Source: Pseudomonadota bacterium
GTDB taxonomy: Bacteria > Desulfobacterota > Desulfobulbia > Desulfobulbales > SURF-16
DNA length: 44,463 nt
NCBI GenBank assembly: GCA_018816555.1
Contig: JAHIVT010000051.1
Coordinates: 1 to 44,463 of the forward strand
Direction: 5' to 3'
Numbering within the stretch: the stretch's first letter is position 1; each line of letters opens with the position of its first letter. Under the pieces are notes generated by a model, which was given only the letters and a program-made list of their open reading frames with translations, did not search any database and was not told where the DNA came from. The position numbers were made by a program, and so were the translations under genes. Of the stretch, positions 2,471 to 24,881 are shown one piece after another.

Positions 2471-2471
2471 G

Positions 2472-3053: not shown

Positions 3054-3104
3054 TATGGCTCAAATACTGGTAATAGAAATGGCTCATTTATCGATGTGAT
3101 TCAC

Positions 3105-3155
3105 AAAAATGCCCTCAAAAAACCCTATTCCCGGCCCTTGACCGGGCATTTTTTT
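3105..3155 (+). terminator. Rho-independent terminator after the first recombinase
   Basis: AAAAATGCCC (3105-3114) and GGGCATTTTT (3144-3153) are perfect 10-base inverted repeats. A nested CCCGG/CCGGG stem lies just before the T run. The A run on one side and the T run on the other would let it work in both directions. It separates the tniA-tniB-recombinase operon from the second recombinase, which therefore has its own transcription start or is read through. Confidence 0.65.
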
Positions 3156-3199
3156 GATGGTAAATGAAACAAAACTAATGAATTGTTTCAGGTGATAAT

Positions 3200-4750: not shown

Positions 4751-7700
4751 ATGAATGTATTTGACCTCAGAAATCGTCTTGTTGAAGACTACTCAAGTTA
4801 CACAAAAAGCTTTATCAAAATTGCAGACGCCCGCATTGCCGAGAAAGTAAATTTGGAACTTTCAGCCGGCGCTTTCTGGCCAGAGCCACTCCTACAGCTC
4901 AATCCAACCTTTCTGCCCGGGGGCACCATTGACGAACTTGTGAGCCAGGGTATGCTTCACCCTGAGTGCTCCAAGATATTCCGGATCGACAAGTCAGATG
5001 TCGACCTCAACGGCAAACCTCTGCTCCTCCATACCCATCAGCGGGATGCCATTATCAAGTCCAAAGAGGGTAAATCGTACGTTCTAACAAGTGGCACGGG
5101 ATCAGGGAAAAGTCTGACCTACATTGTGCCCATCGTTGATCATGTCCTGCGAAACGGTTCTGGGCGGGGCATCCAGGCAATTGTCGTCTATCCGATGAAT
5201 GCCCTCGCCAATAGCCAGGATGAGGAGTTGAGCAAGTTTTTGAAGAAGGGGTACCCGGAAGGGAAGTCCCCTGTCCGATTTGCTCGGTATACCGGTCAAG
5301 AAAAGGGCGCAGAACGTGAAGAAATAAGAAGCAATCCTCCCGACATCCTGCTGACCAACTACATGATGTTGGAATTACTGCTGACTCGCCGCGAGGACCG
5401 AGAACTGGTAAGAGCCGCGCAAGGCTTGAGCTTTCTGGTCTTTGACGAACTCCATACCTATCGAGGGCGGCAAGGAGCTGATGTAGCGCTTCTTATCCGT
5501 CGTTGTCGATTTGCCTTTGGCGGTCATGACATAATCTGTATTGGCACCTCGGCCACCATGGCCAGCGGTGGGAGTTCAGATGAACAGAAACAGGAGGTTG
5601 CCAAGGTTGCCAATACCCTGTTCGGGGTTTCTTTTGATACTTCACAGGTCATTGGTGAAACACTTGAGCGAGCCACGCCGGAGGCTGATTTTGAGTCGCC
5701 CACGGCAATCCAATCATTGAAAGAGGCGATTTTTAATGATGTCCAGCCCCCAGACAATTATGAAGAGTTTCGCCTTCATCCATTGGCATCATGGATTGAA
5801 ACAATGTTCGGGGTGACAACTGAAGAAGGGACCGGCCGCCTGGTGCGACAGACTCCTCTTCGATTGCAGGGTGAGGACAGTGCTGTTGATGTGCTGACAA
5901 GGTTGATCCCATCACTCGATCCTGTTCAGTGCGATACAGTGTTACGCCGTTATCTTTTGAAAGGCTCTGAACTGCGGCGCAGCAGTTCAAGTCGGTTCCC
6001 TATTTTTGCTTTCCGGCTTCATCAATTTTTTACACGGGGCGATACCATATGGTCGACTATTGAATCCGAGGAAAAGCGGCACCTCGAACTGACCAAAAAA
6101 GGATCCAAACCTGGCGAACCAGACAAGCCTCTCTTCCCCCTTGTTTTTTGTCGTCAATGCGGAACCGCCTATTACCGTGTCAAAGTGACCGCCGATCAAC
6201 ACGGCACCATCCTACTTCCCCGGGAAGACAAACGTGAGGAGGGCGATGATGGCAGCGGTGATGCCTATCTATTTACCTCCGAGTCGGCACCGTGGCCTAG
6301 GACTGATGGAAACAGCTTGTTGGAACGCCTCCCTTCTGTCATGAAAGAGACCTCGCCCCAAGGTGTAGAAAGGATTCGTTCTGATGCACGCGGCGATAAA
6401 CCCGAGCCGGTATTCGTGGATGCAGGTGGCTATATTGTGACCGAAGACCAGGGCATACCGGCGGCGTTGATCCGGAAGAACTTCCTTTTTTGCCTAGAGC
6501 CGTCCTGTGGCATCGCCTATACCAAGAGCCAGCGATCAGAGCGTCCTAAATTGGGCACCCTCGGGGTCGATAACCGCAGCACGGCAACCACAATCCTTGC
6601 GGTTCGCTCTCTCATCGAATTGCAAAGGGATCAAGCTCTCAAGCCTGAGGCCCGCAAGCTATTGAGCTTCACGGACAACCGCCAGGATGCCTCACTCCAG
6701 GCTGGCCACTTCAACGATTTTGCTCAGGTCGCCTTGCTTCGTTCTTCGCTCCATAAAGCAACTCAGGATAGGGGCGAAAAGGGGTTGAGTCATGGGGAGC
6801 TTTCTCGAAGCGTCTTTGAAGCCATGCAGCTTCGATTCGATGAATATGCTGCCGATGCCGAGGTTCGAGGGCCAGCCAGAAATGCCACCAATGATGCCCT
6901 GCGCCGCGTCATCGACTACTATCTGTATCGCGATTTACAGCGCGGTTGGCGTGTAACGGCACCAAATCTCGAAGACTGCGGACTGCTGGCCTTTGACTAT
7001 GAAGGGTTGAAAGGAGATGATGGTCTCCTCGGAGAGACAGAGCTTTGGGAGTCAGGCTTCACGGTCCAAGTAGACCGCGAGGCTAAAGAGTTTATCGAGA
7101 CTCCAGCACCTCTCCGTGATTGCCCACCTGAGTTGAGGGAGGAACTATTACGTACGCTGCTCGAAATTATGCGTCGATCACTGGCTGTCAAAGTCGATGT
7201 GCTTGATTCGCAGAAGCAACTTGATCTTGTTGAGCAAACAAAATTTCGTCTTCTTGAAAATACCGTCTGGTATCTGGAAGATGTACGGGAACTCGTGAGG
7301 TCAGAAGTTGCCTACCCCCGCCCTAAACAGCAGCAGGATCGCTCAGGTTTCTTTGTCTCGTCCTATGGCAGCTATGGTCGCTACTTGAAGCGTTCTCTTA
7401 AAAGCTATGTGCCGTCAGGGCAAAACTTCGGTCGTGCCGAAGTCGATCAGGTGATCCGCTTTTTATTCCTCTCCCTCAAACGCTACGGCATTGTCGAGCA
7501 AGTTCGCAGTGGAGATGTGCCGGGTTATCAGATTAACGCCGACGCCTTGCGCTGGCTTCCAGGGAATGGTGAAGTCCGCCCCTTGGATAGAACGCGACTT
7601 TTGGAAGTCGGCGAGATCCCACCCGAAGTAAATCGCTATTTTCTGGAGTGCTACCGCCGATTCGTCGATTTGAAGTGCGTTCTCGAAGCCCGTGAGCATA

Positions 7701-10006
7701 CCGCTCAGGTCGCGTCTGAGGATCGCGAGGAACGTGAAGATCGATTCCGTACTGGGGACCTGCCGCTGCTCTTCTGCTCGCCGACCATGGAACTGGGGGT
7801 GGATATTGCCCAATTGAATCTTGTAAATCTCCGTAATGTCCCACCCACCCCGGCAAATTATGCGCAACGGAGCGGTCGTGCAGGACGTGGTGGCCAGCCG
7901 GCCCTTGTCTATACTTACTGTGCCGGAAGGAGTCCCCACGATCAGTATTATTTCCGCCAGCCAACCCGAATGGTAGCCGGAGCGGTTGCCCCACCGCGAA
8001 TCGATATCCGTAATCGTGATCTTGTCCGCTCCCATGTTCACGCCATTTGGATGGAGGTGGCCAAACCTGATCTGGGGAAGACCCTCACTACGGTCATCGA
8101 CCTTGCCTCTGCCGAGGGGAAGCTTCCGTTGGCTGTTAATGAAGCCATCCAGCGGGAATTGAAGAGCCCTGCCCATCTGGCTGCAACCCAGACCAAAGCA
8201 ACGGAACTCATCGGCAGCATTCAAGGTGAACTGGCCACTGCGGCATGGTTTCATGATAATTGGGTAAAAGAGACCCTTGACCAGATCGAGAGGTCCTTCG
8301 ATGTCGCTTGCGAACGCTGGCGCAGCCTGTACCGTGCGGCAGTCCGGCAGCGAGAGCTGCACCACAAGATTATCGGGGATCACTCGAGGCCCGAGATAGA
8401 GCGAAATCATTCCCGCCGGCTACGTGCACAGGCAGAGAGCCAGATTCGTTTGCTCACCGAGGCCAAGGGGATGTATGAGGGAGATTTTTACTCATACCGC
8501 TATTTTGCGGCAGAAGGTTTTCTGCCCGGCTACAACTTTCCGCGTCTGCCGCTCTCTGCCTATGTCCCAGGCCGTCGACGCCGCAAGGGAAAGGATGAGT
8601 TCGTCTCAAGGCCACGATTTCTCGCGGTATCGGAGTTCGGCCCCCGTGCCCTGGTTTACCATGAAGGGGCACGCTACCGGGTCTATAAGGTCAACCTCGA
8701 TTTTGGCTCCGACGACATCGAGGCAACGCACGATCTCGTGACCGCCACCATGAAACGCTGCCAGAATTGTGGCTACGCACATCTTGAACAAGGGAAAAAC
8801 TTGGCTGAAGTCTGTGACCGTTGTGGGTCAGCATTTGATGGTCCCAGTTGTATCGAAAATCTTGTGCACATGCAGAACGTCAGCCTCAAACTCGCCCAGC
8901 GCATCACCTGCGATGAGGAAGAACGCCAGCGCTTCGGCTATCGGCTTGTCACCTCATACCACTTTCCAGAAGTTGGCGGTAAACTGGATCGCAAGGATGC
9001 CGAGGTCTACTGTGGCGAAACCCTGGCTATGCGCCTCAGCTACGCCGATGCAACTGATCTCTATCGTGTCAACCTGGGCTGGGCCAGCCAGAAAAGTAAC
9101 GAACCTGCCGGGTTCAACCTTGATTTGGAGCGTGGCTACTGGTCCAGCAATCGGATGGATGCCGACGATGAAGACGACGCTGCGAACCAAGGAAGGCGTC
9201 AAAGGGTTGTGCCTTATGTGAAGGATACCAAGAACGCTCTGGTGATGCGTTTCGAGCCACCTCGATCTGGTCCTGAAATGGCGAGCCTGCAGGCCGCCTT
9301 CAAGGAGGCAATCCAGAAACATTTCCAACTGGAACCCCGCGAACTTTCCGGTGAGCCGATGCCTGCCGCCAAGGATCGCAAGGAAGTTCTCTTCTATGAA
9401 TCCTCAGAGGGTGGCGCTGGGGTGTTGCGCCAGGTAGCCGAAGACCCGACACTCATGCCGATGCTGGCCCGTCGCGCCCTGGAGATCTGCCACTTCGACC
9501 CAGATACCCTGGAGGACAAGGGACTTCAGACCTGCGGCAAGGCCTGTTATGAGTGCCTGCTTGACTATGGCAATCAGCCGGACCACAAGGACCTCGACCG
9601 CTATCTTATTCGCGACCTGTTATCCGAACTGTCGCAATCCGAATGCCGGCCAGCCGGTGGGGCCGGATCTCGCACGGAACGGATGGCCTCTTTACGGAAA
9701 CGTTGCGACAGTAAACTGGAGATCAAGTGGCTTGACTTGGTTGATAGCATGATGCTCCGTCCACCGAGTGACGCCCAGTACCTTATCGAGTCCTGTTCCA
9801 CCCGGCCTGATTTTTATTACGCCGAGCACAACACCGCCATCTATGTTGATGGACCTCCCCACGATGAACCAAGTCAGATTCGCGATGACGAGGGCATCAC
9901 TGGACGGCTGATGGAGATGGGCTACATTGTCATCCGCTTTCACCACAAGCAGGACTGGCAGGAGATCTTCCGTCGTCATCCCGACATTTTTGGGACCCCG
10001 AAATGA
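4751..10006 (+). CDS. giant DUF1998 helicase with C-terminal Vsr-like nuclease domain (DrmA/DrmB-like)
   Basis: 1751-residue superfamily 2 helicase. Walker A is SGTGSGKS (about residue 114), the DEAD-box position is FDELHTYRGRQG (231), motif III is GTSATM (267), and motif V/VI reads SPTMELGVD to QRSGRAGRGG (1010-1045). Zinc-type pairs are FCRQCGTAY (about 470) and CQNCGY/CDRCGS (1337-1358). A DUF1998 block follows: FYESSEGGAGV (about 1550) and CGKACYECLLDYGNQ (about 1595). The last 80 residues (RPDFYY, IYVDGPPH, GYIVIRF) match the Vsr/DUF559 type of PD-(D/E)XK fold. In DISARM the helicase (DrmA) and DUF1998 protein (DrmB) are separate; here their hallmarks are in one chain, of roughly their combined length. 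DruE of Druantia is another large DUF1998 helicase, so that relationship is the main alternative. It is first in the operon, and its stop overlaps the next start as ATGA. Confidence 0.85.
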   Translation: MNVFDLRNRLVEDYSSYTKSFIKIADARIAEKVNLELSAGAFWPEPLLQLNPTFLPGGTIDELVSQGMLHPECSKIFRIDKSDVDLNGKPLLLHTHQRDAIIKSKEGKSYVLTSGTGSGKSLTYIVPIVDHVLRNGSGRGIQAIVVYPMNALANSQDEELSKFLKKGYPEGKSPVRFARYTGQEKGAEREEIRSNPPDILLTNYMMLELLLTRREDRELVRAAQGLSFLVFDELHTYRGRQGADVALLIRRCRFAFGGHDIICIGTSATMASGGSSDEQKQEVAKVANTLFGVSFDTSQVIGETLERATPEADFESPTAIQSLKEAIFNDVQPPDNYEEFRLHPLASWIETMFGVTTEEGTGRLVRQTPLRLQGEDSAVDVLTRLIPSLDPVQCDTVLRRYLLKGSELRRSSSSRFPIFAFRLHQFFTRGDTIWSTIESEEKRHLELTKKGSKPGEPDKPLFPLVFCRQCGTAYYRVKVTADQHGTILLPREDKREEGDDGSGDAYLFTSESAPWPRTDGNSLLERLPSVMKETSPQGVERIRSDARGDKPEPVFVDAGGYIVTEDQGIPAALIRKNFLFCLEPSCGIAYTKSQRSERPKLGTLGVDNRSTATTILAVRSLIELQRDQALKPEARKLLSFTDNRQDASLQAGHFNDFAQVALLRSSLHKATQDRGEKGLSHGELSRSVFEAMQLRFDEYAADAEVRGPARNATNDALRRVIDYYLYRDLQRGWRVTAPNLEDCGLLAFDYEGLKGDDGLLGETELWESGFTVQVDREAKEFIETPAPLRDCPPELREELLRTLLEIMRRSLAVKVDVLDSQKQLDLVEQTKFRLLENTVWYLEDVRELVRSEVAYPRPKQQQDRSGFFVSSYGSYGRYLKRSLKSYVPSGQNFGRAEVDQVIRFLFLSLKRYGIVEQVRSGDVPGYQINADALRWLPGNGEVRPLDRTRLLEVGEIPPEVNRYFLECYRRFVDLKCVLEAREHTAQVASEDREEREDRFRTGDLPLLFCSPTMELGVDIAQLNLVNLRNVPPTPANYAQRSGRAGRGGQPALVYTYCAGRSPHDQYYFRQPTRMVAGAVAPPRIDIRNRDLVRSHVHAIWMEVAKPDLGKTLTTVIDLASAEGKLPLAVNEAIQRELKSPAHLAATQTKATELIGSIQGELATAAWFHDNWVKETLDQIERSFDVACERWRSLYRAAVRQRELHHKIIGDHSRPEIERNHSRRLRAQAESQIRLLTEAKGMYEGDFYSYRYFAAEGFLPGYNFPRLPLSAYVPGRRRRKGKDEFVSRPRFLAVSEFGPRALVYHEGARYRVYKVNLDFGSDDIEATHDLVTATMKRCQNCGYAHLEQGKNLAEVCDRCGSAFDGPSCIENLVHMQNVSLKLAQRITCDEEERQRFGYRLVTSYHFPEVGGKLDRKDAEVYCGETLAMRLSYADATDLYRVNLGWASQKSNEPAGFNLDLERGYWSSNRMDADDEDDAANQGRRQRVVPYVKDTKNALVMRFEPPRSGPEMASLQAAFKEAIQKHFQLEPRELSGEPMPAAKDRKEVLFYESSEGGAGVLRQVAEDPTLMPMLARRALEICHFDPDTLEDKGLQTCGKACYECLLDYGNQPDHKDLDRYLIRDLLSELSQSECRPAGGAGSRTERMASLRKRCDSKLEIKWLDLVDSMMLRPPSDAQYLIESCSTRPDFYYAEHNTAIYVDGPPHDEPSQIRDDEGITGRLMEMGYIVIRFHHKQDWQEIFRRHPDIFGTPK

Positions 10007-12840
10007 TTACAGTATCCTTCCTTGCCAAACCCGGCACCATGATCCACGCTCGTGGCCGCGAGTGGGTAGTCCTGCCCGAGTCCACAGAAGAACTGCTTCT
10101 CGCTCGGCCCGTGGGTGGGCTTGACGAAGAGATCGCAGGCATTCTTCCCGCTGTCGAGCCTGTACAATCCACCACATTCCATCTACCTACCCTTGCCGAT
10201 ATCGGTGACTTTGCCTCGGGCCAACTCCTGCGCGAGGCAGCACGGTTGTCTACCCGGGCCGCTGCCGGTCCCTTCCGCAGCTTCGGCCGCATTGCTGCCG
10301 AACCTCGGCCTTACCAGCTTGTGCCGCTGATGATGGCTTTGAAACTCGATCCCGTCCGCCTGCTCATTGCCGACGATGTCGGGATTGGCAAGACCATCGA
10401 GGCCGCTGTCATTGCCCGTGAACTCCTTGACCGAGGAGAGATCACCCGAATGGCCGTCCTCTGCCCTCCGCACCTTGCCGAACAATGGCAACGGGAACTG
10501 GCAGAGAAATTCCATATCGAAGCTGAACTGGTTCTCTCCAGCACCATCCAGCGTTTGGAGCGAGACCTGCCTATTGGGGTATCGGTATTTGATCGTCACC
10601 GCTTCACCATAGTCTCCACTGATTTCATCAAGACCCCTCGCCACGCCGAAGACTTTCTCATTAAATGTCCCGAGTTCGTTATCGTCGATGAAGCCCATGG
10701 TTGCACGCTGGCAGGCGGCGTAGGTCGTGGCAGGCAGCAACGCTTCGACCTCCTGAGGCGAGTTGCGGAAGACCAATCACGTCACATAGTGCTTGTCACC
10801 GCCACCCCCCACAGCGGTAATGAGAACGCATTCCGCTCGCTCTTGAGCCTGCTCGACAAGGATTTTATCAACCTTCCCACCGACCTCGACCGGGCAGAAC
10901 GGGAAGGCATCCGACGAAAGCTTGCCCGCCATTTGGTGCAGCGTCGGCGTGCCGACATCCGCCATTATCTCGAGACCGACACCTCCTTTCCCGAGCGCAA
11001 GGATAAGGAATCGACCTACATCTTCAGCAAAGAGTACCGCATCCTCTTTGACGATATTCTTTCCTTTGCGCGGGAGTATGTTTCTGAAAAAGACGGCGGC
11101 AAACGCCAGCAGAGGGTCCGCTATTGGTCGGCCCTGGCCCTGCTGCGCTGCGTATCCTCCAGCCCGGCCGCCGCAGCATCGACGCTGCGAAACAGGGCAG
11201 CCGTGGATCAGGCGGACGAGCATGACGTCGATGAGGTCGGACGTCGCACAGTACTTGATCAGGACGACTCCGACGATACGGCAGCTCTCGATTTCAGCCC
11301 AGGGTCAGACACCGAAAATGGTGCCGAGAATACCCGCCGGAAATTGCTCGAATTTGCCAGACGGGCCGAGAGGCTTGCCGCCGACACGGACCTCAAGCTC
11401 CAGGGGGCCATCCGTGAGATCAAGACCCTTGTCAAGGACGGTTTCCAGCCGGTGGTATTCTGCCGCTTTATTGACACAGCCGACTATGTCGCCCGCCAGC
11501 TTCGTGAGTCACTCCCCTCCAAAGTCAAGGTCGAGTCGGTGACCGGCTTGCTGCCATCTTCCGAGCGTGAGGCGCGCATCGCCTCCCTGACCAGCGAGCC
11601 GGGGAAGTATGTGCTGGTCTGTACCGATTGCCTGTCAGAGGGGATCAACCTTCAGCAGCACTTCAATGCGGTTCTGCACTATGACCTTGCTTGGAACCCT
11701 ACTCGTCACGAACAGCGGGAAGGTCGAGTGGATCGTTTTGGCCAGGAAAAGCCAGAGGTTCGTGTCATCACCTATTACGGCACCGATAACCCCATTGATG
11801 GCGTCATCCTCGATGTACTCATACGCAAGCATAAGAGCATCAAGAGCGCCCTCGGGGTTAGTGTCGCTGTTCCAGGGTCGAGCGAGCAGATCGCCGAGGC
11901 CCTTTTCGAGGGGGCGCTCTTCCGCAAACAGTCCATCGGCAAGGCCCGTCAACTTTCGCTTTTTGACCTGGAAGAAGTCGTAACAAAGAAGATGTCGCTG
12001 CACAGCGAGTGGGATAATGCCCGCGACCGCGAAAAGGCGAGCCGTTCACGTTTCGCCCAGCACACCCTGAGCCCTCAGGCGGTTGCTGAGGAGTTGCAGA
12101 ACATTCGCACCTCCATCGGCCGTGGCGAAGAAGTGGCCCGCTTTTTTAACGATGTGCTGCAGGCGGCACATCTCCCGGTCCAGACTAAAGGTAAGGCGGT
12201 GACTGTACATTTGAGTAACGAAACGCCGCGTGCAATGCGCCAGGCCATTGGACGTGACGAATCCTTTACCGGTCGTTTTGACCTGCCGCTGCAGGAAGGG
12301 GAGCTGTATCTCGGACGTACCAGTCCGGTGGTGGAAGGTCTGGCCGCCTGGACGCTCGATCAAGCCCTTGATCCGGTGGCCCGCGATACCCGGCCGGTGG
12401 CCTCGCGATGCGGCGTTGTCTCCACCTCTTTCGTGAATGTCCGGACAACACTGCTCCTGGCCCGTTTCCGTTATCACCTCAATATCGCCGGGGGTGACGC
12501 CGAAACTATCCTCTGCGAAGAGATTGTCCCGCTTGCCTGTATTGGGCAGGCGGACTCACCCCAATGGTTTTCCCCGGAAGAAAGCGAACGCTTCCTGACG
12601 GCCCGACCGGAACGCAATCTCATCATGACGGCCATCGAGCAGCAGGTCGGACTATTGACATCTGTCCTGCCGAAACTTCAACAGGCCCTGGCTCTGGTTG
12701 CCACGGAACGCGCCGATATCCAACTCGCCGCCCACGAACGTGTCCGCGAGTCGGCCCGGGCCAAGGGCCGAGTCACTATCAAGCCCGTTCTCCCGGTGGA
12801 TATACTCGGGGCCTATGTTCTGCTGCCGAGGTTGAGCTAG
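10003..12840 (+). CDS. SNF2-family helicase, DrmD-like
   Basis: 945-residue SNF2/RapA-like DNA translocase. Motif I is ADDVGIGKT (about residue 123) with the Q-motif-like PRPYQL before it. Motif II is VDEAH (about 229), motif III is TATPHSG (266), and the C-terminal lobe has CTDCLSEGINLQ, LAWNPTRHEQREGRVDRFGQ (541-580). This is the layout of DrmD, the SNF2 helicase of class 1 DISARM. The long C-terminal extension past the helicase lobes (residues 620-945) is also DrmD-like. It would translocate on duplex DNA and feed or regulate the other components. ATGA overlap with the previous gene and a 2-base gap to the methylase indicate tight co-translation. Confidence 0.85.
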   Translation: MITVSFLAKPGTMIHARGREWVVLPESTEELLLARPVGGLDEEIAGILPAVEPVQSTTFHLPTLADIGDFASGQLLREAARLSTRAAAGPFRSFGRIAAEPRPYQLVPLMMALKLDPVRLLIADDVGIGKTIEAAVIARELLDRGEITRMAVLCPPHLAEQWQRELAEKFHIEAELVLSSTIQRLERDLPIGVSVFDRHRFTIVSTDFIKTPRHAEDFLIKCPEFVIVDEAHGCTLAGGVGRGRQQRFDLLRRVAEDQSRHIVLVTATPHSGNENAFRSLLSLLDKDFINLPTDLDRAEREGIRRKLARHLVQRRRADIRHYLETDTSFPERKDKESTYIFSKEYRILFDDILSFAREYVSEKDGGKRQQRVRYWSALALLRCVSSSPAAAASTLRNRAAVDQADEHDVDEVGRRTVLDQDDSDDTAALDFSPGSDTENGAENTRRKLLEFARRAERLAADTDLKLQGAIREIKTLVKDGFQPVVFCRFIDTADYVARQLRESLPSKVKVESVTGLLPSSEREARIASLTSEPGKYVLVCTDCLSEGINLQQHFNAVLHYDLAWNPTRHEQREGRVDRFGQEKPEVRVITYYGTDNPIDGVILDVLIRKHKSIKSALGVSVAVPGSSEQIAEALFEGALFRKQSIGKARQLSLFDLEEVVTKKMSLHSEWDNARDREKASRSRFAQHTLSPQAVAEELQNIRTSIGRGEEVARFFNDVLQAAHLPVQTKGKAVTVHLSNETPRAMRQAIGRDESFTGRFDLPLQEGELYLGRTSPVVEGLAAWTLDQALDPVARDTRPVASRCGVVSTSFVNVRTTLLLARFRYHLNIAGGDAETILCEEIVPLACIGQADSPQWFSPEESERFLTARPERNLIMTAIEQQVGLLTSVLPKLQQALALVATERADIQLAAHERVRESARAKGRVTIKPVLPVDILGAYVLLPRLS

Positions 12841-12842
12841 CC

Positions 12843-15800
12843 ATGACCAGACGACACAACGACTTCCATGCTATCCGCTCGGAAGGCGGTCTGTTACCGC
12901 CTGACCTCTTGCGCCGCGTACTCGACCCGAAAGAGAGGCTCGCCGGAGTCCGACCCGAGGATTATGGCCTGCCCCAGGGCGAACGACTCAACGAAGTCAT
13001 CACCCAGTCCTGGAACCGCCTGCGCCGGCACTGGGCCGAGTTCCTTGCTTCCGCTGCGAACCTCCCCAAAGGCGAACCCGCAACCGGCCTGACCAACGAT
13101 AAATGGAGCCTGCCGCTGTTGCGTGAGCTCGGCTTTGGCCTGCTCCCCACCACTGCCGGCCCCGAGATCGACGGCCGCACGTATGCCATCAACCGTTTTT
13201 TCGGCCCGGTGCCTATTCATCTGGTCGGCTGTGGCTTGAGCCTCGACCGTCGTGCTGCCGGGGTGCGCGGTGCCGCCGCGGTCAATCCGCACGGTCTGGT
13301 TCAGGAATTCCTGAACCGCAGCGAAGGCCACCTCTGGGCCATTGTGTCGAATGGCCTGCGCTTCCGCCTGCTCCGTGACAACCAGGCCCTCTCGCGTCAG
13401 TCTTTCCTTGAATTCGATCTCGAAGCTATGCTGGCTGGCGAGGTCTATTCCGATTTTGTTCTGCTCTGGCTCATGGCCCACGCCACCCGATTTGTTTCAC
13501 AAGAAAATGAACGGCCCGAGAGCTGCTGGCTGGAGCATTGGACCAAGATTGCCGGGGAACAGGGCACCCGGGCTTTGGGGGATTTGCGCGGCGGTGTGGA
13601 AAAGGCGTTGCAGATCCTGGGCGAGGGCTTTACCAGCCACCCCAAGAACACCACCCTGCGTGACGCGCTGCGCACTGGCCAGGTAAGCCTCATCGATTTT
13701 CATGGCCAGCTCCTGCGGGTGGTCTACAGGCTGATTTTCCTCTTCGTGGCCGAAGATCGCACCCTGGACGGCCAACCCCTCCTCCATCCCGGCGATCCCT
13801 CCGAGGCAGCTCGGCTGGCCCGGGAACGCTATGCCGCCCATTACAGCACCGGCCGACTTCGTGATATGGCCTCCCGCATCAAGGGCAGCCGTCATGGAGA
13901 CCTTTGGCGGCAGTTCCAGCTCCTGGTCAATGCCCTGTCTGGCACTGATCAGTTCGATGCAGCGCGCCAGCTCCTGGCCTTGCCGGCCTTGGGCAGTTTC
14001 TTATGGGATCCGGACTCGACAGCGGCGCTGAATGATGCGGAACTGACCAACCACGATCTGCTAGAGGCCCTGCGCCACCTCGCCTTTACCCGCCAGGGCA
14101 AGATGCTGCGGCCGGTGGATTACAAGAACCTTGGGGCCGAGGAACTGGGCGGGGTCTACGAGAGTCTCCTGGCCCTCACCCCACAGATAAGCGCCGACGG
14201 TGCCCGATTCTCCTTTGCCGAATTCGCCGGCAACGAGCGCAAGACCTCCGGCTCCTACTACACGCCGGACTCCCTGGTTCAGTGTCTTTTAGACTCCGCC
14301 CTGGACCCGGTGGTGGCCAAGGCCATTAAGGGCAAGACCGGTGTTGAGGCTGAGAAGGCCATTCTCAACCTCAAGGTCTGCGATCCGGCTGTTGGTTCCG
14401 GACATTTTCTGGTAGGTGCCGCCCACAGGCTGGCCCGACATCTGGCCCGGGTACGGGCGCTGGCGCAAGGGGAGAGCGAACCCTCGCCGTTACTGTACCA
14501 GCATGCCCTGCGTGATGTCATTGGACGCTGCCTGTATGGCGTAGACGTGAATCCTATGTCAGCCGAGCTCTGCCGGGTGAACCTCTGGCTGGAGGCTCTG
14601 GAGCCCGGCAAGCCGCTCTCTTTCCTCGACCATCATATCCGGGTGGGCAACAGCCTCCTGGGCGCCATCCCGGAACTCGTTGCCGCAGGGCTCCCGGACG
14701 ATGCCTTCAAGCCCTTCGAGGGCGATGATAAGCAGGCGTGCGCTGAACTCAAGAAACGCAATAAAGGGGAACGAAAAGGATGGGGGCCAATTGAGGGGCA
14801 GCGTGACGCCGAGACCCAGGCCCGACTGGCCCAGGCCGCCGCCACGCTGGAGGAATTGCCCGACGACCGGCCGGAATCAATCCGCGCCAAGGAACTGGCC
14901 TTCCACCGCCATGAAGAAACCGAGGCGTACCGGAAGAAGAAGCTGCTCGCCGATGCCTGGTGCGCTGCCTTTGTCATCAAGAAATATTTCCCGCCCCATC
15001 CGACCGACCCCAGATTCCCGTCATCTGAGCCCTACGGCATCACCCAGGGCCTGCTGAACGGCTTGGCCAGTGGCATGCCTCTTCCCGCCGGGATGGCGGA
15101 AGAGATCGAGGATTTGGCGCGGCAGTATCAGTTCTTCCACTGGCATCTGACTTTTCCTGAGGTGTTTGCCAAGGGCGGCTTTGACTGTATGCTTGGAAAT
15201 CCGCCATGGGATATGCAAGAGGTAAAAGATAACGAGTTTTTTGCATCATGTTATCCTGAAATCCTCTCTGTCAAGAGTGCGAAAGACAAGGCTGCTGTTT
15301 TGTATAAAATTCAGTCTGATGACGCTGAGTTATGGCAAGAGTATCAGGAATACGTTCGCTTTACCTATGGTCAAAAACACCTTATGGCAGCCAGCGGCCG
15401 ATTTCCCTACGCTAATGTGGGACGGTTGAACCTGTATCGTTTGTTTTTGGAGTTAGAGCATAATTTCATGGGGCCAACTGGTCGCGTTGGCATCGTTGTA
15501 CCCTCCGGGTTTGCTTCTGACTCGTTTTCGCAGGACCATTTTGCAACCTTACACGGCGACAATCGGCTAGTGAGCCTGTATGACTTTGAAAATCGGCTGG
15601 GACTCTTTCCTGGAGTGGACAGTCGTTATCGATTCTGCCTGCTTACCATCGGAGGCAAGGGGGTCTGTAGCGATACCGACTTCTTTTTTTTCGCCCACTC
15701 ACCGTCCGACCTGGCGGACACCAATCGGCATATCCGACTTTCACAGCAAGCGGTTTCAGTGCTGAACCCACTGAGCCGAACGGCGCCACTCTTCCGAACC

Positions 15801-17048
15801 CGGCATGACTATATTCTAACCTTGATGTTGCAAAAGGCTGGTCCCATCATTGGTAGAGACGAGGGAGGGCAAGGATGGAGGATAAAACCAACCTTGATGT
15901 TTATGATGAATGCCGCCATGAAAGGCCACCGGACGGCAGAAGAATTATATGCTAAGGGATTCCATTTGCGAGGGAACTGCTTCACACGCGACTCCGATGT
16001 ATGGTTTCCGTTCTACGAGGGGAAGATGGTTGGTATGTATGACCACCGAGCGGCGATCATCCGTTTTGACCCAACCAATAGGGTACGCCGCAATCAACCA
16101 GTGGCTCTGTCGGATACAGAACATCAAGACCCTAAACAGTTGGCCCAGCCGATGTTTTGGGTCAGCGCATCGGATGTTAGCGAACGTTGCAATGTGGTGC
16201 CCCGGTGGTGTCTCGCTATCAAGGATGTTACCGCTTCTACGAACGAGCGTACTGCGATTGCGTCAATGCTTGCGGGAGTTGCATTAACTCATTCTCTTCC
16301 CTGGCTTCCAACGCCGCATACCGCAGAGTTAAATGCTTGTCTATTGGCCAATTTCAATTCTTTTTGTTTTGATTACACGGCAAGACAGAAAGTTGCTGGT
16401 CTCCACCTTTATGGGCACTATCTCAACCAGTTGCCTGTCATTGGAATACCCATTTTCAATGGCTCCTGCCGCTGGTCTGAGGTCATAAATTGTTTCGCTT
16501 TATGGATTTCACCTCGTGTCCTTGAACTTACATACACCGCCTGGGACCTTGAGCCCTTCGCGCAGGATTGCGGCTGGTCTGCCTCACCGTTTCGCTGGGA
16601 TGAAGAACGTCGCTTCATACTCCGCTGCGAACTAGATGCCGCCTTCTTCCACCTCTACCTGCAAGCTACGGCGAATGGCCAATGGGGAATTACGAATGGC
16701 GAGGTCGATGCTGAAGGTAAATCACTCGCTATTCGCCACTCACTCCTCGCCGCCTTTCCCACCCCCCGACACGCCGTGAACTACATCATGGACACCTTCC
16801 CCATCGTCCGCCGCAAGGATGAGGCCAAGTACGACGGCGACTACCGCACCAAGCGCGTCATCCTTGAAATTTACGATGCCATGCAGGAGGCCATCCGCAC
16901 CGGCCAGCCCTACCAGACCCTCCTTGACCCGCCACCAGGACCACCAATCGACGCTGAGGGCAATTTCATCCAACCTGCAGACTGGACCGAGGTAATCCGT
17001 GAACGATACCGGGGCATTATCCATCCGCCGCGAGAGGAGGCTGAGTGA
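12843..17048 (+). CDS. Eco57I/PglX-like N6-adenine DNA methyltransferase
   Basis: 1401-residue gamma-class adenine methylase. SAM-binding motif I is CDPAVGSGHFL (about residue 514), preceded by GSYYTPDSLV (472). YGVDVNPMSAELCRVNLW follows, and the catalytic motif IV is GNPPWD (about 786). The region after residue 800 should be the target recognition part. The N-terminal 450 residues resemble the front of type IIG or PglX enzymes (LWAIVSNGLRFRLLRDN), but I see no convincing nuclease catalytic residues, so it is probably a methylase only. In DISARM and BREX the equivalent enzyme marks host DNA so that the rest of the system spares it. ATG 12843 follows the SNF2 stop by 2 bases. The stop overlaps, as GTGA, the GTG of the broken gene behind it. 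Confidence 0.9.
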   Translation: MTRRHNDFHAIRSEGGLLPPDLLRRVLDPKERLAGVRPEDYGLPQGERLNEVITQSWNRLRRHWAEFLASAANLPKGEPATGLTNDKWSLPLLRELGFGLLPTTAGPEIDGRTYAINRFFGPVPIHLVGCGLSLDRRAAGVRGAAAVNPHGLVQEFLNRSEGHLWAIVSNGLRFRLLRDNQALSRQSFLEFDLEAMLAGEVYSDFVLLWLMAHATRFVSQENERPESCWLEHWTKIAGEQGTRALGDLRGGVEKALQILGEGFTSHPKNTTLRDALRTGQVSLIDFHGQLLRVVYRLIFLFVAEDRTLDGQPLLHPGDPSEAARLARERYAAHYSTGRLRDMASRIKGSRHGDLWRQFQLLVNALSGTDQFDAARQLLALPALGSFLWDPDSTAALNDAELTNHDLLEALRHLAFTRQGKMLRPVDYKNLGAEELGGVYESLLALTPQISADGARFSFAEFAGNERKTSGSYYTPDSLVQCLLDSALDPVVAKAIKGKTGVEAEKAILNLKVCDPAVGSGHFLVGAAHRLARHLARVRALAQGESEPSPLLYQHALRDVIGRCLYGVDVNPMSAELCRVNLWLEALEPGKPLSFLDHHIRVGNSLLGAIPELVAAGLPDDAFKPFEGDDKQACAELKKRNKGERKGWGPIEGQRDAETQARLAQAAATLEELPDDRPESIRAKELAFHRHEETEAYRKKKLLADAWCAAFVIKKYFPPHPTDPRFPSSEPYGITQGLLNGLASGMPLPAGMAEEIEDLARQYQFFHWHLTFPEVFAKGGFDCMLGNPPWDMQEVKDNEFFASCYPEILSVKSAKDKAAVLYKIQSDDAELWQEYQEYVRFTYGQKHLMAASGRFPYANVGRLNLYRLFLELEHNFMGPTGRVGIVVPSGFASDSFSQDHFATLHGDNRLVSLYDFENRLGLFPGVDSRYRFCLLTIGGKGVCSDTDFFFFAHSPSDLADTNRHIRLSQQAVSVLNPLSRTAPLFRTRHDYILTLMLQKAGPIIGRDEGGQGWRIKPTLMFMMNAAMKGHRTAEELYAKGFHLRGNCFTRDSDVWFPFYEGKMVGMYDHRAAIIRFDPTNRVRRNQPVALSDTEHQDPKQLAQPMFWVSASDVSERCNVVPRWCLAIKDVTASTNERTAIASMLAGVALTHSLPWLPTPHTAELNACLLANFNSFCFDYTARQKVAGLHLYGHYLNQLPVIGIPIFNGSCRWSEVINCFALWISPRVLELTYTAWDLEPFAQDCGWSASPFRWDEERRFILRCELDAAFFHLYLQATANGQWGITNGEVDAEGKSLAIRHSLLAAFPTPRHAVNYIMDTFPIVRRKDEAKYDGDYRTKRVILEIYDAMQEAIRTGQPYQTLLDPPPGPPIDAEGNFIQPADWTEVIRERYRGIIHPPREEAE

Positions 17049-17351
17049 CCAGTGACCGGTCCAACCAGCACTCGCTGCAGATGGCATTGTGCGGCAAATA
17101 TCCCAGCCAGACCGATGCCAAGGGCTACGTCCGCACCCCTTGCCGACAACCTGATCGACGGCGTCAGCCTGGCGCAGTTCGAGGCTGACCTGCAAAGCGG
17201 CGACGGTGCCGAACTTCATGGGAAGTTCCGTGCCGTCCACTCTTCCTCTGCCCTGGCCGTAAACTGCTTTCCGCTCTTGACCAGAGGAGCCACGATTGGT
17301 TTGAACATTTCGCTTTTTGAGAGAACATGGATATCTCCACTGCTTGGGTAA
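17045..17351 (+). pseudogene. broken 5' end of a putative restriction-nuclease gene (PGN_0703-like)
   Basis: A GTG start overlapping the methylase stop (GTGA) opens a frame with QTDAKGYVRT, which shifts at a CCCC run (17136-17139). Dropping one C joins it to a second frame reading LADNLIDGVSLAQFEADLQS, then GKFRAVHSSSALAVNCF and LFER, before it stops. From memory this pattern (ADNLI-x-GV, then a KFRAxHSSxALAVN box and FE) belongs to a family of PD-(D/E)XK-type proteins annotated as PGN_0703 family putative restriction endonucleases. Only about 100 codons remain of an expected 250 or more. The gene was thus both frameshifted and truncated, with the next gene starting inside its remnant. The family name is the least certain part; the broken-gene reading is well supported. 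Confidence 0.6.
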
Positions 17352-18964
17352 AGCCGACCAATGCCATCGGCGGTCTTGATCATCTGGCCGTGCAGGCACC
17401 CTGCATCAACCTCTATGGCCGTATGCTGCCAGGAATCACCAACGTCACCGATCGAGCCCGGTACTACAGCTTTTACCCTTGGGTCATCTGGGCTTTGGAA
17501 CAGCTCGGCCATCGTTACGGAGACGCCTTCATTGATTGGTTCCGGAAAGCGGACTGCCTGTTCACCTTGATTGCCGAGCGGCACGCCAAGGTCGTTGGCG
17601 GCGAACGTGACGATCATGCGGCTGCAACCGTTGGCAGCGGCAATATGGCAGAGCCTGTCACAATGGTGCGCGAGGGGGGCTCAGTCAGATTATCGGAATA
17701 TGCCTGCCGGAATGGGAAAACCCGCTACTTCAAAAACACCTTGGGTGGGCTTGGGCAATATTACATCGGCGTGTTCAGAGAGCTTGGCATCATGACCGGT
17801 GATCTCCAGTCTGGCATCAAAAACATCAAGGAGGTCGGTGGGAGCCTGGCGGAGGCCCTTGATCGGCAGGTCAATCGGGAGTTGTTCTTCAAGACAATTG
17901 AAGAAGACACAGTGTCAGCGGCACGGCTTGACGAACTGCACGCCTTTTGCCCGTGTGCCTTGCATGAAAGCCAAGAGGAACTCACCAAACTTGCGGGCAT
18001 GCTTTTTGTGCAAGGGCAATTTTTTGATCAAAACAGTCTGGTTCGGCGGCGCACCTTGCAGATGCTCCTTTTTCTGTCCGATAGTTTAGCGGCAGAGGGG
18101 ATGAACTTGGGCATCGAGCAGTTTCGTGGGTGTACCTATAGTGGGGGCTTGCCGGAGAAAAAAGAATGGGATCTTCCTGAACGCCTTCAGGTTACCCGCC
18201 AGCAGTGGGCTATCTACCAACGCAACGAAATTTTATCCCTGGCGGTTCAAGGGATTTTTTATGTCATCCTTGGCCAATATGGTTCTTCAGGCGAACGCTT
18301 CCAGTCGGTCGACGAACTCGTACTTTGGTTCCTCGAAAGACCAGAGGTCGAGGGGGTTGCTTCATTTTTTCCTTTAGATAGCCCTGTCGGTCATGCGAAA
18401 AGAGAAGCAGATTCGTGGCTTCCGCCTCTGGACGATTGGGGAAACGACAGCCACGAGATCCAATTGGCTTTTCAAATCGAAACCCTTTGTCGTGATAAAC
18501 ATGCTCATGACAAACACGCCGCAATCCTTCTGGCCTGCCTGAAGGCGCTTGTCGCGTTACAATGCCGCCATGAAATCGGTGATGGCTACGGCGATTTCGT
18601 CTTCCCGCCCAACTATCTCCAGGCCTATCCGATCAACCTGCAGACCTTCAACCATCATAGCAGCAACACCTGGGATACGCTTTCCATGCGCGAATGGATC
18701 GGGTGGCTGGCTAAATCATGGGGCATCAATACTCACTTCATGGTGGCATTGCGTAAGCTGCGCGGCCAATCCCAGTCAACTTTCCGCATCAGGCCTTCCG
18801 ATCAGGGGCTGGAGATGGTGGAGGCACCGCAAGCGGTTTTTACGACGCCACGTTTCCGGCAAGCCGTGCGCATTCTCAAAGATATCGGAGCACTTGTCCG
18901 AACAGGCGAGGTCTGGGCACCATCGGAACTCGGCAAGCGATTCATGGAGATGGCCGATGAGTGA
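17327..18964 (+). CDS. defence-cassette protein of unknown function with a RARYYSFYPW motif
   Basis: 545-residue soluble protein with no domain I can name. Near the N-terminus it reads MLPGITNVTDRARYYSFYPW (about residues 32-51). A very similar opening (PGxSxxxxRARYFLFxPW) is found in DUF6361-type proteins that sit next to helicase/methylase defence genes, so a distant relationship is possible. Later conserved-looking parts are FKNTLGGLGQYYIG (about 133-146), a Cys pair in FCPCALHESQEELTKL, and a C-terminal winged-helix-like stretch. It starts with ATG 17327 (GAGAG upstream) inside the remnant of the broken nuclease gene and overlaps the PLD gene by 8 bases. Its place between methylase and PLD makes it a likely structural or specificity part of the cassette. 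Confidence 0.75.
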   Translation: MDISTAWVKPTNAIGGLDHLAVQAPCINLYGRMLPGITNVTDRARYYSFYPWVIWALEQLGHRYGDAFIDWFRKADCLFTLIAERHAKVVGGERDDHAAATVGSGNMAEPVTMVREGGSVRLSEYACRNGKTRYFKNTLGGLGQYYIGVFRELGIMTGDLQSGIKNIKEVGGSLAEALDRQVNRELFFKTIEEDTVSAARLDELHAFCPCALHESQEELTKLAGMLFVQGQFFDQNSLVRRRTLQMLLFLSDSLAAEGMNLGIEQFRGCTYSGGLPEKKEWDLPERLQVTRQQWAIYQRNEILSLAVQGIFYVILGQYGSSGERFQSVDELVLWFLERPEVEGVASFFPLDSPVGHAKREADSWLPPLDDWGNDSHEIQLAFQIETLCRDKHAHDKHAAILLACLKALVALQCRHEIGDGYGDFVFPPNYLQAYPINLQTFNHHSSNTWDTLSMREWIGWLAKSWGINTHFMVALRKLRGQSQSTFRIRPSDQGLEMVEAPQAVFTTPRFRQAVRILKDIGALVRTGEVWAPSELGKRFMEMADE

Positions 18965-21596
18965 GGCCATTTCGCTCCTCAAAGAGATTCGTTTCGGGGG
19001 CTACGAAGCCTCCTTGATCACCACTTTCAATGCGTATCTGCCTTTTTACGAGGACGTGGTCCTGCGACATCTGATGGCCAGTGGTGTGCGGCACAATGTC
19101 TTGATGATGGACTCATCACAGGCCAGCCTTGCCATAGATCGCCATCCGCCCCGTTCCGCCGGCCGTTTGTACACCTTGACGCCAATCAAAGTAGGCGCTG
19201 CCTTTCACCCGAAAATCATCCTCTTGGTAGGCAAAAAGAAAGGAACTCTGTTTGTGGGTAGCCACAACATGACCTTGTCGGGATTTGGCTTCAACCGAGA
19301 GATGACCAACCTGATCCGCTACAGTGGAACGGGAGATGCCGATGCCGCAGCTCTCTTGGGATCTGCCTGGCAAGATGTTCTCCACTGGGTGGCAACCCAA
19401 GGCAATCACTTGACTGGCCATGTCAGTGAGATGATCATGAAGGTGCAGGATTTTGCTCCGTGGCTTCAGCAGAGTGGTGCCAAGGTGGCATCTGAAGAGT
19501 ATCGGGTTCTTGCTTCCAGGCAAGATGCACCAAGCCTTTGGCAACAGCTGAGGGAATTCGTTGGTACGGAACCGGTCAAGCACGTTGTGATCAGCGGGGC
19601 ATTCTTTGACGCAAACCTCTCCTTTATCGAACAGGTACGCGATGCGCTTGCACCCAAGGAACTGACTGTAGGGTTTGATCCCGCCACAGTCCAGTTCCCG
19701 GTTGAGAAAAAACTTCCTGGGGTATCCTTCGTCAACTCTTCTGGCCTGGGTGTGGGAGAAAATCATGGCAAGCACGCCGGATATTTGCATGCCAAATCGA
19801 TTTTCATTCAACACGAGAACGGTACGATGGTCTTGGCTGTCGGCAGCGCCAACCCAAGCTCACCCGCCTGGCTTGCTCCCAATTTAACGAAAAATGCCGA
19901 GATGATGATAGCTCGAAAAGACGAAGCGGCTTTGCAGACAGCCGAAGCGCTTGGGTTGACATCTATCCCTACCATGCCTCCCTTGACAAAGGATGATTGG
20001 GAGGTTGCTCGCCAGAATTGGGACGGTACGGGCGGTATAGAAAAAAATGATGCTGTTTCGAAGGTGATCATTGCCATTCAGATGGAGAATGCGATCAGAT
20101 TTCGATTTCCGGACTGTGCGCATCCTTCTTTCCTTGATTGCGAACTTTTTTCTTCGCCGTTCGCTAGCCCTGAGGTCAAACGAGCACTTTTGCTGGACGA
20201 TGAATATGTCCTCGCACTTGAAGGCGTTGTTGTCCCGCCGATTCTCATTCGATTTATTGTCAATGGCAAGTCCTTTACTGGTCTTGTGCAGTGCGTCAAA
20301 CAAATAGAGGGACTCTCGAGAACAAGTTCTCAGAGAAAATTCAATGAAGCATTAGCATCTCTCACGACTGGCATGCCTGATATTGCCCATTTTATCGATT
20401 GTATTAAGGATATTATCAGTATCAGTGATAAAGTGGTTATGACCAAATCTCTGCCCGGAGGGGGATTAAAAAAGAAAGACAGTGAAGCACCTAAAAAGAT
20501 AACTGAAGGGGCAGAACTGTCGATTGGCATTGATGAGCTTGACCAACAAAACATCAAAAAGAAACAACGATTGCGCAGTTCCGATGACCTTGGATACCTG
20601 CTGGATGTATTACTCTATAATTTGCGGGACGACCACCAGACTGGTTTAGAGGCCGTCTTGGAAGAACGCGATGCCAAGGGGCGCTCAGAGGAAGAACAGG
20701 TTGATGCTGATGACGAGGATGAAGTTCCGCCAGTATTCCCTCCCTCGGATCGTGAACAAAAAACACCGGGTGTAGAGTTCGGTAATTGTACAAGCGCACG
20801 GGATGCTGACCGGAACCCATTGGACGTCTGCCACCAGAAAGTCAGATCTCTTGTGTCAATAGCACGCAAAAAACTGGATGCCTTGAAACTAGGCAACATG
20901 GATTTGCCTCAATTCGTGGTGATCTTGGCTGGAGTTCTATCGACACTTCGTTTGTTGCGTGGATTCGATGGCAAGGTTCCCTGGATCGGTGCCGGTCAGA
21001 CGGCAGTTCCAATCAAAGAGCTTCGTGCTCTTTTTGATCACATTGCCTCTGTCATGTATGACGGGAGTTATTCGATTATTTGTCTTGATAACCGTCACTC
21101 GAACTTGGCAGATATGGATGAGTTTGCGCGGCTCAAGGGGTTGATTGTCTGGCTAGCATGTGAGTGTGGAATCTCATTCAAGAAAAAGAAGCCATTGTCT
21201 GAATCGGTTGATGAACAAAACAAGCGATATATAGAAAATCAACTTTATGTGGCCACGGCTCAATTGATTGCTGGTGACGATGTTGTTATAAGTGAAGTAC
21301 AGCAAAGTATTGGGCAATCAAGTCCTCTTAGCATTGATTGGCTAAAGAAAATTGTTTCCGTTGATAAATTTTTTCTGCGGGCATATTCACAACCAGATCT
21401 TTTTCATGCAGGCGGCAATGTGAATTCAGGTGATTTTGGCTTTAATCCGTCAATACGTCATATTGGTATGCGTGCGATTTCGAAGCGTGGTTCAAATAAT
21501 TTTTCGTTATCCTTCCATGATAATATGAAACCGCGCTTTATATTTCCAGAAATCAATATCCGTGTAATTCATTTTGAGCAGATTTATAATGCATAG
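18957..21596 (+). CDS. phospholipase-D-fold protein, DrmC-like, with long C-terminal extension
   Basis: 879-residue protein. Two HKD-like half-sites are visible. The first is HPKIILLVGKKKGTLFVGSHN (residues about 84-104). The second is HAKSIF with VGSANPS (about 278-301), where the spacing and GS(H/A)N pattern fit the PLD fold used by nucleases. Residues 480-600 are polar and linker-like (many D/E/K). The last 280 residues form a second domain I do not recognise, in more AT-rich sequence. DrmC of DISARM is a PLD protein but much shorter, so this is at most a distant counterpart. ATG 18957 overlaps the previous stop (ATGAGTGA). The frame is open a further 400 bases upstream, but that part lies inside the preceding gene and is not needed. 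It is the last gene of the operon. Confidence 0.8.
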   Translation: MSEAISLLKEIRFGGYEASLITTFNAYLPFYEDVVLRHLMASGVRHNVLMMDSSQASLAIDRHPPRSAGRLYTLTPIKVGAAFHPKIILLVGKKKGTLFVGSHNMTLSGFGFNREMTNLIRYSGTGDADAAALLGSAWQDVLHWVATQGNHLTGHVSEMIMKVQDFAPWLQQSGAKVASEEYRVLASRQDAPSLWQQLREFVGTEPVKHVVISGAFFDANLSFIEQVRDALAPKELTVGFDPATVQFPVEKKLPGVSFVNSSGLGVGENHGKHAGYLHAKSIFIQHENGTMVLAVGSANPSSPAWLAPNLTKNAEMMIARKDEAALQTAEALGLTSIPTMPPLTKDDWEVARQNWDGTGGIEKNDAVSKVIIAIQMENAIRFRFPDCAHPSFLDCELFSSPFASPEVKRALLLDDEYVLALEGVVVPPILIRFIVNGKSFTGLVQCVKQIEGLSRTSSQRKFNEALASLTTGMPDIAHFIDCIKDIISISDKVVMTKSLPGGGLKKKDSEAPKKITEGAELSIGIDELDQQNIKKKQRLRSSDDLGYLLDVLLYNLRDDHQTGLEAVLEERDAKGRSEEEQVDADDEDEVPPVFPPSDREQKTPGVEFGNCTSARDADRNPLDVCHQKVRSLVSIARKKLDALKLGNMDLPQFVVILAGVLSTLRLLRGFDGKVPWIGAGQTAVPIKELRALFDHIASVMYDGSYSIICLDNRHSNLADMDEFARLKGLIVWLACECGISFKKKKPLSESVDEQNKRYIENQLYVATAQLIAGDDVVISEVQQSIGQSSPLSIDWLKKIVSVDKFFLRAYSQPDLFHAGGNVNSGDFGFNPSIRHIGMRAISKRGSNNFSLSFHDNMKPRFIFPEINIRVIHFEQIYNA

Positions 21597-22397: not shown

Positions 22398-22479
22398 CCG
22401 CAACTCACCTGCCGCGCAAAGGAAGAGCTGCGTAGCGCCGCCAACATTTTCGCGGGCAGGTGCAGTAGTATTGTTAGCG
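22398..22479 (-). other. attC-like integron recombination site A
   Basis: Read on the minus strand, the site begins with CCGCTAAC, whose TAA is the stop codon of the kinase gene, and ends with GTTGCGG. Between them CACCTGCCCGCG pairs with CGCGGCAGGTG, leaving one extrahelical base, the hallmark that sets attC strand choice. It shares CACCTG arms with site B and the TATTGTTAG end with site C. The GTTGCGG core deviates from GTTRRRY, so it may be a weak or decayed site. Confidence 0.6.
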
Positions 22480-23987: not shown

Positions 23988-23997
23988 TGTTTCCCTC

Positions 23998-24118: not shown

Positions 24119-24127
24119 TTATATTAT

Positions 24128-24847: not shown

Positions 24848-24881
24848 GATTTCTTATTGAGGAAGTTTATAATTTTTTTTA

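Follow-up and report, generated by a model that had tools for sequence, protein, structure and literature searches.

Five closely packed genes at positions 4751–21596 of the window, by which we mean the whole 44,463-nucleotide stretch of DNA analysed, raise the question of whether a single new antiphage system is encoded there. The original prediction was a DISARM relative, and possibly a new subtype, in which the functions of DrmA and DrmB lie in one chain, DrmC is replaced by a much larger PLD protein and a further component is added. We consider a different answer probable, and hold it with good confidence: the locus is an ARMADA I operon (genes 1–3) beside an uncharacterised Azaca-like nuclease pair (genes 4–5), two modules in one defence island. 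The features of the stretch are as follows.

Gene 1, 4751..10006, + strand: 1751 aa; YprA-like helicase fused to DUF1998/MZB, with a Vsr/DUF559-like motif at its C-terminus (probable ARMADA I YprA).
Gene 2, 10003..12840, + strand: 945 aa; SNF2/RapA/BrxHII-like helicase (ARMADA ArmA-like).
Gene 3, 12843..17048, + strand: 1401 aa; Eco57I/PglX-type putative N6-adenine methyltransferase (ARMADA ArmB-like).
Gap between genes 3 and 4, 17049..17326, + strand: decayed, frame-shifted N-terminal remnant of an REase-like protein of about 300 aa.
Gene 4, 17327..18964, + strand: 545 aa, largely helical; apparently a distant relative of ZacA/DUF6361; it opens the pair.
Gene 5, 18957..21596, + strand: 879 aa, two-motif PLD-superfamily protein; apparently a distant relative of ZacB; it completes the pair.

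The prediction of five intact, co-directional genes was borne out by the frames and the junction sequences. Genes 1 and 2 overlap by ATGA (10003–10006), genes 2 and 3 are separated by 2 bases (12841–12842), and genes 4 and 5 overlap by ATGAGTGA (18957–18964). The helicase, methylase and PLD catalytic motifs were intact in genes 1, 2, 3 and 5. Relatives in many genomes preserve the same reading frames, and the five frames are thus not due to chance.

In contrast to these tight junctions, 278 bases separate gene 3 from gene 4. The gap contained remnant pieces in two different frames, most clearly at 17136–17300, the larger of which resembled the N-terminal part of proteins of about 300 aa from a few other genomes of the same phylum. 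This piece matched open frames in 5 of the 296 other phylum genomes (E 5e-4 to 5e-3; cut-off, E 0.01 or better). Four of the five matches were convincing on reading; L157 was rejected as a false match. The intact relatives carry a motif that we read as PD-(D/E)xK, and we take them to be the PGN_0703-like family. The remnant had no match on plasmids, nor any in the loci collected before the phylum genomes were searched for it. The arrangement is consistent with a deletion or insertion at the pseudogene remnant across which the two modules touch. On the + strand of the gap, neither a terminator-like nor a promoter-like site was seen and, as genes 1–3 and 4–5 are co-directional, the two modules may share one transcript.

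The flanks of the stretch carry further genes of mobile-element and defence type. Upstream, at 232–3823 on the + strand, lie a TnsB-like transposase (PADLOC TnsB, type V-K, 1e-47), an AAA/TnsC-like protein (TnsC, E 5e-4) and two tyrosine recombinases of about 207 aa; the GC content there is 43%, against 50–56% in four other contigs of the genome. These TnsB/TnsC-like and recombinase genes are possibly the vehicle of the island. Beyond gene 5, at 22474–26256 on the - strand, are a Ser/Thr protein kinase matching the mad6 and PD-T4-6 models, a DUF3010 protein, an unassigned 239-aa protein and one that is MauJ-like; these may extend the same defence island. A DUF6519 protein lies at the right end (40918–42249, - strand) among several unassigned proteins.

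Profile searches placed genes 1–3 among the helicases and methylases of several related systems. In gene 1, Pfam detected DEAD, Helicase_C and MZB (1e-10) in a single chain, confirming that DrmA-type and DrmB-type functions are joined in one protein. The best PADLOC model for gene 1 was DruE3 (370.9 bits, against 51.9 bits for DrmA), and the NCBIfam DrmA model scored 13.8 bits (cut-off, 950). Its motifs were GTGSGKS, DELH, QRSGRAGR and PDF..VDG..H, the last at 1686. This last motif, together with a DUF559 match under the cut-off (E 0.031), is the basis on which the C-terminal end is assigned as Vsr-type and PD-(D/E)xK nuclease-like; of the fused nuclease that had been predicted, the motif stands, while a family match above the cut-off does not.

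Gene 2 was matched over residues 10–943 by a PADLOC model labelled DpdE (PDLC02853; 806.7 bits), followed by DrmD (273.8 bits) and BrxHI/HII (189.5 bits), and carried the motifs DDVGIGKT and DEAH. The DrmD layout attributed to it held as a resemblance, but its NCBIfam DrmD score of 299.8 bits fell under the cut-off of 610. PDLC02853 fits an ARMADA-type SNF2 helicase, and its DpdE label may mislabel ARMADA helicases. Gene 3 proved to have the domains of the predicted adenine methylase (Eco57I, 4e-16; N6_Mtase, 9e-10; PADLOC DrmMI, 210.1 bits) and the motifs DPAVGSG (SAM) and NPPW. For the five proteins taken in order, the best PADLOC models were DruE3, the DpdE-labelled model, DrmMI, ZacA (weak) and ZacB; a relationship to DISARM was upheld, within a set of models drawn from several systems.

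A mixed Druantia/DISARM profile picture is what the main text of a recent preprint describes for ARMADA (Bell et al., bioRxiv Sept 2025, PMC12458937). According to that text, the Type I gene order is generally YprA, BrxHII-like helicase and PglX-like methylase; the Type I YprA bears a C-terminal Vsr nuclease; the YprA helicase resembles that of Druantia; and the BrxHII-like helicase and PglX-like methylase are common to ARMADA and DISARM class 1 (PMC12458937). The same text links PLD nucleases with DISARM, Dpd, BRIGADE and Druantia III rather than with ARMADA, and nowhere names Azaca or DUF6361 (PMC12458937). By gene order and architecture, genes 1–3 are a probable member of ARMADA Type I. The core of the predicted new five-gene system or DISARM subtype therefore fits a published type, and its helicase is closer to DruE than to DrmA.

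A tree of 27 helicases was compatible with this placement. The window paired with L136 (support 100/100), the nearest core relative, whose helicase is 80% identical to that of the window, and nested among helicases from loci of the YprA-SNF2-methylase order. It lay apart from four helicases that fell elsewhere on long branches: one of ARMADA II type from E. coli, two of Druantia III type and a DISARM DrmA. Two reversed-order loci (L161 and L162) grouped with the ARMADA II and Druantia rows. The deep forks were weak and the long-branch placements are flagged as unsure, which leaves the window's own placement untouched. The type labels of the outgroups were read from gene order and annotation.

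The same three genes were found in the same order elsewhere, for the most part without genes 4 and 5. Among plasmids, 171 records had a gene-1 match, and 12 neighbourhoods were opened (gene-3 matches included). Seven of these, from Actinomycetota and Pseudomonadota (L010–L016), had the window's gene order, although in L012 genes 2 and 3 are separated by a toxin-antitoxin pair. Downstream of the seven cores lay McrBC, an AAA ATPase on the opposite strand, HNH, an SMC-like protein with HNH (twice), a transposase region and IS21. Genes 4 and 5 had no match in any of these seven stretches, and the 13 plasmid records matching gene 4 included none of the seven. The other five neighbourhoods (L158–L162) had different gene orders, also without a gene-4 or gene-5 match. 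Two of these, L158 and L159, are E. coli plasmids, with an ARMADA II-type gene order and with an array of Zorya II, Druantia III-type, SNF2 and methylase genes, and resemble chromosomal islands described in the preprint's main text (PMC12458937).

Within the window's phylum, gene 1 was matched at E 1e-50 or better in 26 of 395 genomes, its own included. Of 16 stretches taken, eight had genes 1–3 in order; the others ended early or had no gene-2 or gene-3 match. Genes 4–5 were absent from seven of the eight over the 2 to 7.5 kb covered beyond gene 3, though a stretch ending 2–4 kb past gene 3 could miss a more distant gene 4. The eighth, L151, had a broken gene-4 piece farther downstream (L169). 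Significant for the question posed above, the stretch of the nearest relative, L136, lacked genes 4–5, and gene 4 was also absent from its genome (G006).

Genes 4 and 5, in turn, form a coupled pair. A genome scan with a six-row gene-4 profile confirmed 191 places, of which 80 were kept. In all 72 loci with a gene 4 of 500 or more codons, a relative of gene 5 followed directly, and the two genes overlapped by 4, 8 or 11 bases in 66 of the 72 (start codons were picked by script; that of gene 5 could not be located in L032). Among these 72 loci, gene 5 was short in L056, L057 and L075 and cut in L039. In the remaining eight loci (L060, L061, L063, L064, L070, L074, L079 and L084), gene 4 was short, broken or cut by a contig end; L061 kept a gene-5 relative and the other seven were without one.

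The pair was also found on mobile DNA. Gene 4 was matched in 13 of 72,556 plasmid records, nine of which also matched gene 5, and gene 5 was matched in 16, seven of them without a gene-4 match. The pair was present on five of six gene-4 plasmids opened, where it stood alone or adjoined Zorya, type I R-M or AbiE-like genes; the sixth (L009) held a gene-4 fragment only. On viral contigs, three gene-4 relatives were found, each followed by a gene-5 relative. In the window's phylum the pair is thinly spread, since gene 4 was matched in two of the 297 genomes searched: that of the window and one with broken pieces.

Gene 4 matched no Pfam, NCBIfam or PHROG family. Its structure was predicted with high confidence (pLDDT 91.8) and, on a Foldseek search of the PDB, the model had no match at E 0.001 or better. 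A second structure comparison gave middling Z scores against helical transporters and MntR, a likeness that we read as common helix arrangements in the model; these structure searches do not make the predicted fold new. Gene 5 was recognised as the PLD protein that had been predicted (Pfam PLDc_2, 8e-9), with HPK at 84 and GSHN at 101, and HAK at 278 and GSAN at 296. The core of both HxK/GSxN motifs was conserved in 43 sequences, with H84, H278, K280, S297 and N299 invariant. The predicted structure (pLDDT 83.6) matched Tdp1, PLD4 and PLD3 (best E 6.2e-9).

Both proteins pointed remotely to Azaca. The genes of Azaca are ZacA-ZacB-ZacC. The PADLOC ZacA model matched gene 4 at E 0.0074, whereas a true ZacA scores 9.2e-147; the ZacB model matched gene 5 in part at 3.2e-11, compared with 2e-183 for a true ZacB. 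No Pfam DUF6361 match was obtained for gene 4. On profile comparison, gene 4 aligned with DUF6361 in 73 columns of its N-terminal region (86% probability; pairwise P 4.7e-6) and gene 5 with ZacB-type proteins over 286 columns (97%; pairwise P 3.4e-11). DUF6361 genes were found in 3 of 148 phylum genomes, each followed by a PLD gene, and one of these pairs gave the true ZacA and ZacB scores of 9.2e-147 and 2e-183. Azaca is likewise reported to contain a PLD-like domain (PMC10952713).

Two of the DUF6361-PLD loci were extended, and both had a third gene, encoding a helicase of about 1090 aa. With these two helicases from beside ZacA/ZacB-type pairs as queries, no match at E 1e-8 was found in the 80 gene-4 loci, and gene 2 of the window shared with them a 44-bit stretch only. 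Genes 4–5 are thus candidate remote relatives of ZacA-ZacB that have no ZacC-like helicase. No description of a gene 4–5 system turned up in the open-licence literature searched, an absence that weighs little. The pair appears to be an Azaca-like variant that is apparently unnamed in the libraries and literature searched.

Gene 5 was also considered as simply an enlarged DrmC, a reading that we rejected. DrmC matched it at E 0.0027, with ZacB better at 3.2e-11, and the gene pairs with gene 4; a gene-5 relative in L017 gave 5.6e-7 for DrmC and 3.9e-12 for ZacB. Replacement of DrmC by a larger PLD protein, as the original prediction had it, is accordingly set aside, gene 5 belonging to a pair of its own that is apparently a remote relation of ZacA-ZacB.

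Whether core and pair belong together was judged from the loci in which they meet. An ARMADA I core and gene 4 lay on the same contig in 7 of the 80 gene-4 loci, with gene 4 beginning 1.2 to 8.4 kb downstream of the methylase. Gene 4 was intact in L018, L046, L050 and L058, and broken in L064, L074 and L084. The co-occurrence expected of all five genes was therefore seen as nearness of the two modules, but with other genes between them: Fic in L046, a pair of SIR2 and Dsr1-like genes in L058, E1-E2 among others in L018, and LmuB-like, YhcG and HNH genes in L050. These intervening genes were mostly of defence type. Among the linked loci seen, core and pair were in direct contact in the window alone, across the pseudogene remnant. 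In the three loci with a broken gene 4 after an ARMADA I core, the pair seems to decay in place.

Several loci with partial resemblance were not counted as linked: L017, with a methylase upstream and YprA-SNF2 on another contig; L078, with YprA upstream of the pair and neither SNF2 nor methylase detected; L042, with a DISARM DrmA nearby; and L092, with SNF2 and methylase downstream. Of the 50 rows in the gene-4 tree, 7 lay near ARMADA genes (among those so labelled are L017, the window and L059, whose YprA lies 6 kb beyond gene 5). At least five changes of ARMADA-nearness were needed, and 18 of 500 shuffles gave a number as low. Among gene-4 relatives with sufficient flanking sequence, those closest to the window (L017, L018 and the broken L064 and L084) all had ARMADA genes upstream, a pattern that hints at something beyond chance in that lineage. 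Pair and core have met repeatedly, and neither needs the other in order to be kept. Gene 4, predicted to be an added component of the system, is not a fixed part of ARMADA and was mostly found without ARMADA nearby.

Among the alternatives to two modules in one island, the one that survives best, while still unlikely, is that the modules are separable and cooperate where they meet, ARMADA I recruiting the pair as an extra nuclease. The synergy reported for ARMADA II with Druantia III, as given in the main text of the preprint, would be a precedent (PMC12458937). The five or more changes on the gene-4 tree imply repeated meetings or losses, and the closest gene-4 relatives (L017, L018, L064 and L084) come from genomes whose ARMADA-type helicases are merely 37–39% identical to that of the window, both of which speak for such recruitment. 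An ARMADA-type methylase was, however, no commoner than HsdM in the gene-4 loci (9 of 80 each, the former including L042 and L092; HsdR, 7 of 80), and ordinary defence-island clustering could yield such counts. As a rough control confined to the gene-4 loci, the HsdM and HsdR counts demonstrate neither enrichment nor its absence; the background for ARMADA-type helicases is the 26 of 395 phylum genomes given above.

That genes 4–5 are not antiphage at all, and act instead in DNA repair, mobile-element competition or as a toxin-antitoxin, we think improbable, and more so than cooperation. The modelled structure of the PLD protein resembles the repair enzyme Tdp1 and the pair is carried on some plasmids (gene 4 in the 13 records above), but its neighbours include Zorya, type I R-M, AbiE-like and ARMADA genes, and its remote relatives are Azaca proteins.

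A single five-gene system, a new DISARM or ARMADA subtype with gene 4 and the PLD protein as constant components, is very unlikely. The close packing and shared direction of the genes argue for it, as does the linkage in seven loci, four with an intact gene 4, from several phyla. Most opened copies of each module, however, were without the other, the intervening genes varied among the four linked loci whose gene 4 is intact, contact was direct in the window only and across a pseudogene remnant, and the nearest core (L136) had no pair. The five genes were rejected as a fixed unit, the modules occurring mostly apart. Of the two outcomes that had been named in advance as fatal to a new system, a described type holding the same five genes and homologues never found together, neither was observed in full.

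Least credible of all, and rejected on the PADLOC and NCBIfam scores and the helicase tree, is a DISARM class 1 locus with fused DrmA and DrmB: genes 2 and 3 give DrmD-like and DrmMI-like profiles, but the NCBIfam DrmA (13.8 of 950) and DrmD (299.8 of 610) bit scores fall short, gene 1 is nearest to DruE, and a DISARM DrmA forms a very long branch that falls outside the rest of the tree, a placement flagged as unsure.

We return, then, to an ARMADA I operon beside an Azaca-like pair. Gene content, gene order, intact motifs, pairing, separability and remote homology are direct observations, and we infer the antiphage activity of both modules and each biochemical step below. The gene 3 adenine methylase would mark self DNA. 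The helicases of gene 2 (SNF2/RapA type) and gene 1 (YprA type, with a zinc canopy) would engage unmarked or abnormal incoming DNA, and the nuclease-like end of gene 1 would cut it, giving direct, non-abortive restriction. In ARMADA Type II, on which rather than on Type I the phage tests of the preprint's main text were done, four genes were essential and protection was non-abortive (PMC12458937). These data lend support to the class, not to this locus. The PLD-superfamily phosphodiesterase of gene 5 probably cuts nucleic acid, and gene 4, its constant partner, is probably a sensor or adaptor controlling it.

A broader proposal, advanced tentatively and about as doubtful as the cooperation considered above, is that genes 4–5 represent a two-gene antiphage family, so far unnamed, that crosses phyla. 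Its Azaca-like sensor and PLD nuclease, needing no helicase of their own, would then serve as a recurrent plug-in effector beside ARMADA I or other systems, using their helicases or DNA intermediates.

The locus is thus no longer a "new DISARM-like system" but probably belongs to a type described only recently, and a false claim is avoided. The novelty left is the gene 4–5 pair, gene 4 having a confidently predicted fold and no clear match in the libraries searched. The pair fits a single-plasmid test, and its helicase-free form asks what the helicase does in Azaca.

Compared with known systems, the window resembles Druantia III in that gene 1 is nearest in profile to DruE; it differs in that gene 1 is accompanied by an SNF2 helicase and a methylase, not a DruH-type gene, and in its separate branch on the helicase tree. 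With DISARM class 1 it has in common an SNF2 helicase, an adenine methylase, DUF1998 helicase functions and a nearby PLD protein. It differs in having a single chain in place of separate DrmA and DrmB genes, in NCBIfam scores far under the cut-offs, and in a PLD protein that belongs to another pair. The resemblance to Azaca lies in the DUF6361-like N-terminal region followed by an overlapping PLD gene, but the proteins of genes 4 and 5 are longer and very distant, and the helicase that adjoins true ZacA-ZacB had no relative in the 80 gene-4 loci. To ARMADA Type I the window adds the adjoining PLD pair and the REase-like remnant; with it the window shares the order of YprA, BrxHII/RapA-like helicase and PglX-like methylase, the fusion of DUF1998 to the helicase in gene 1, and the nuclease-like motif at the C-terminus of that protein.
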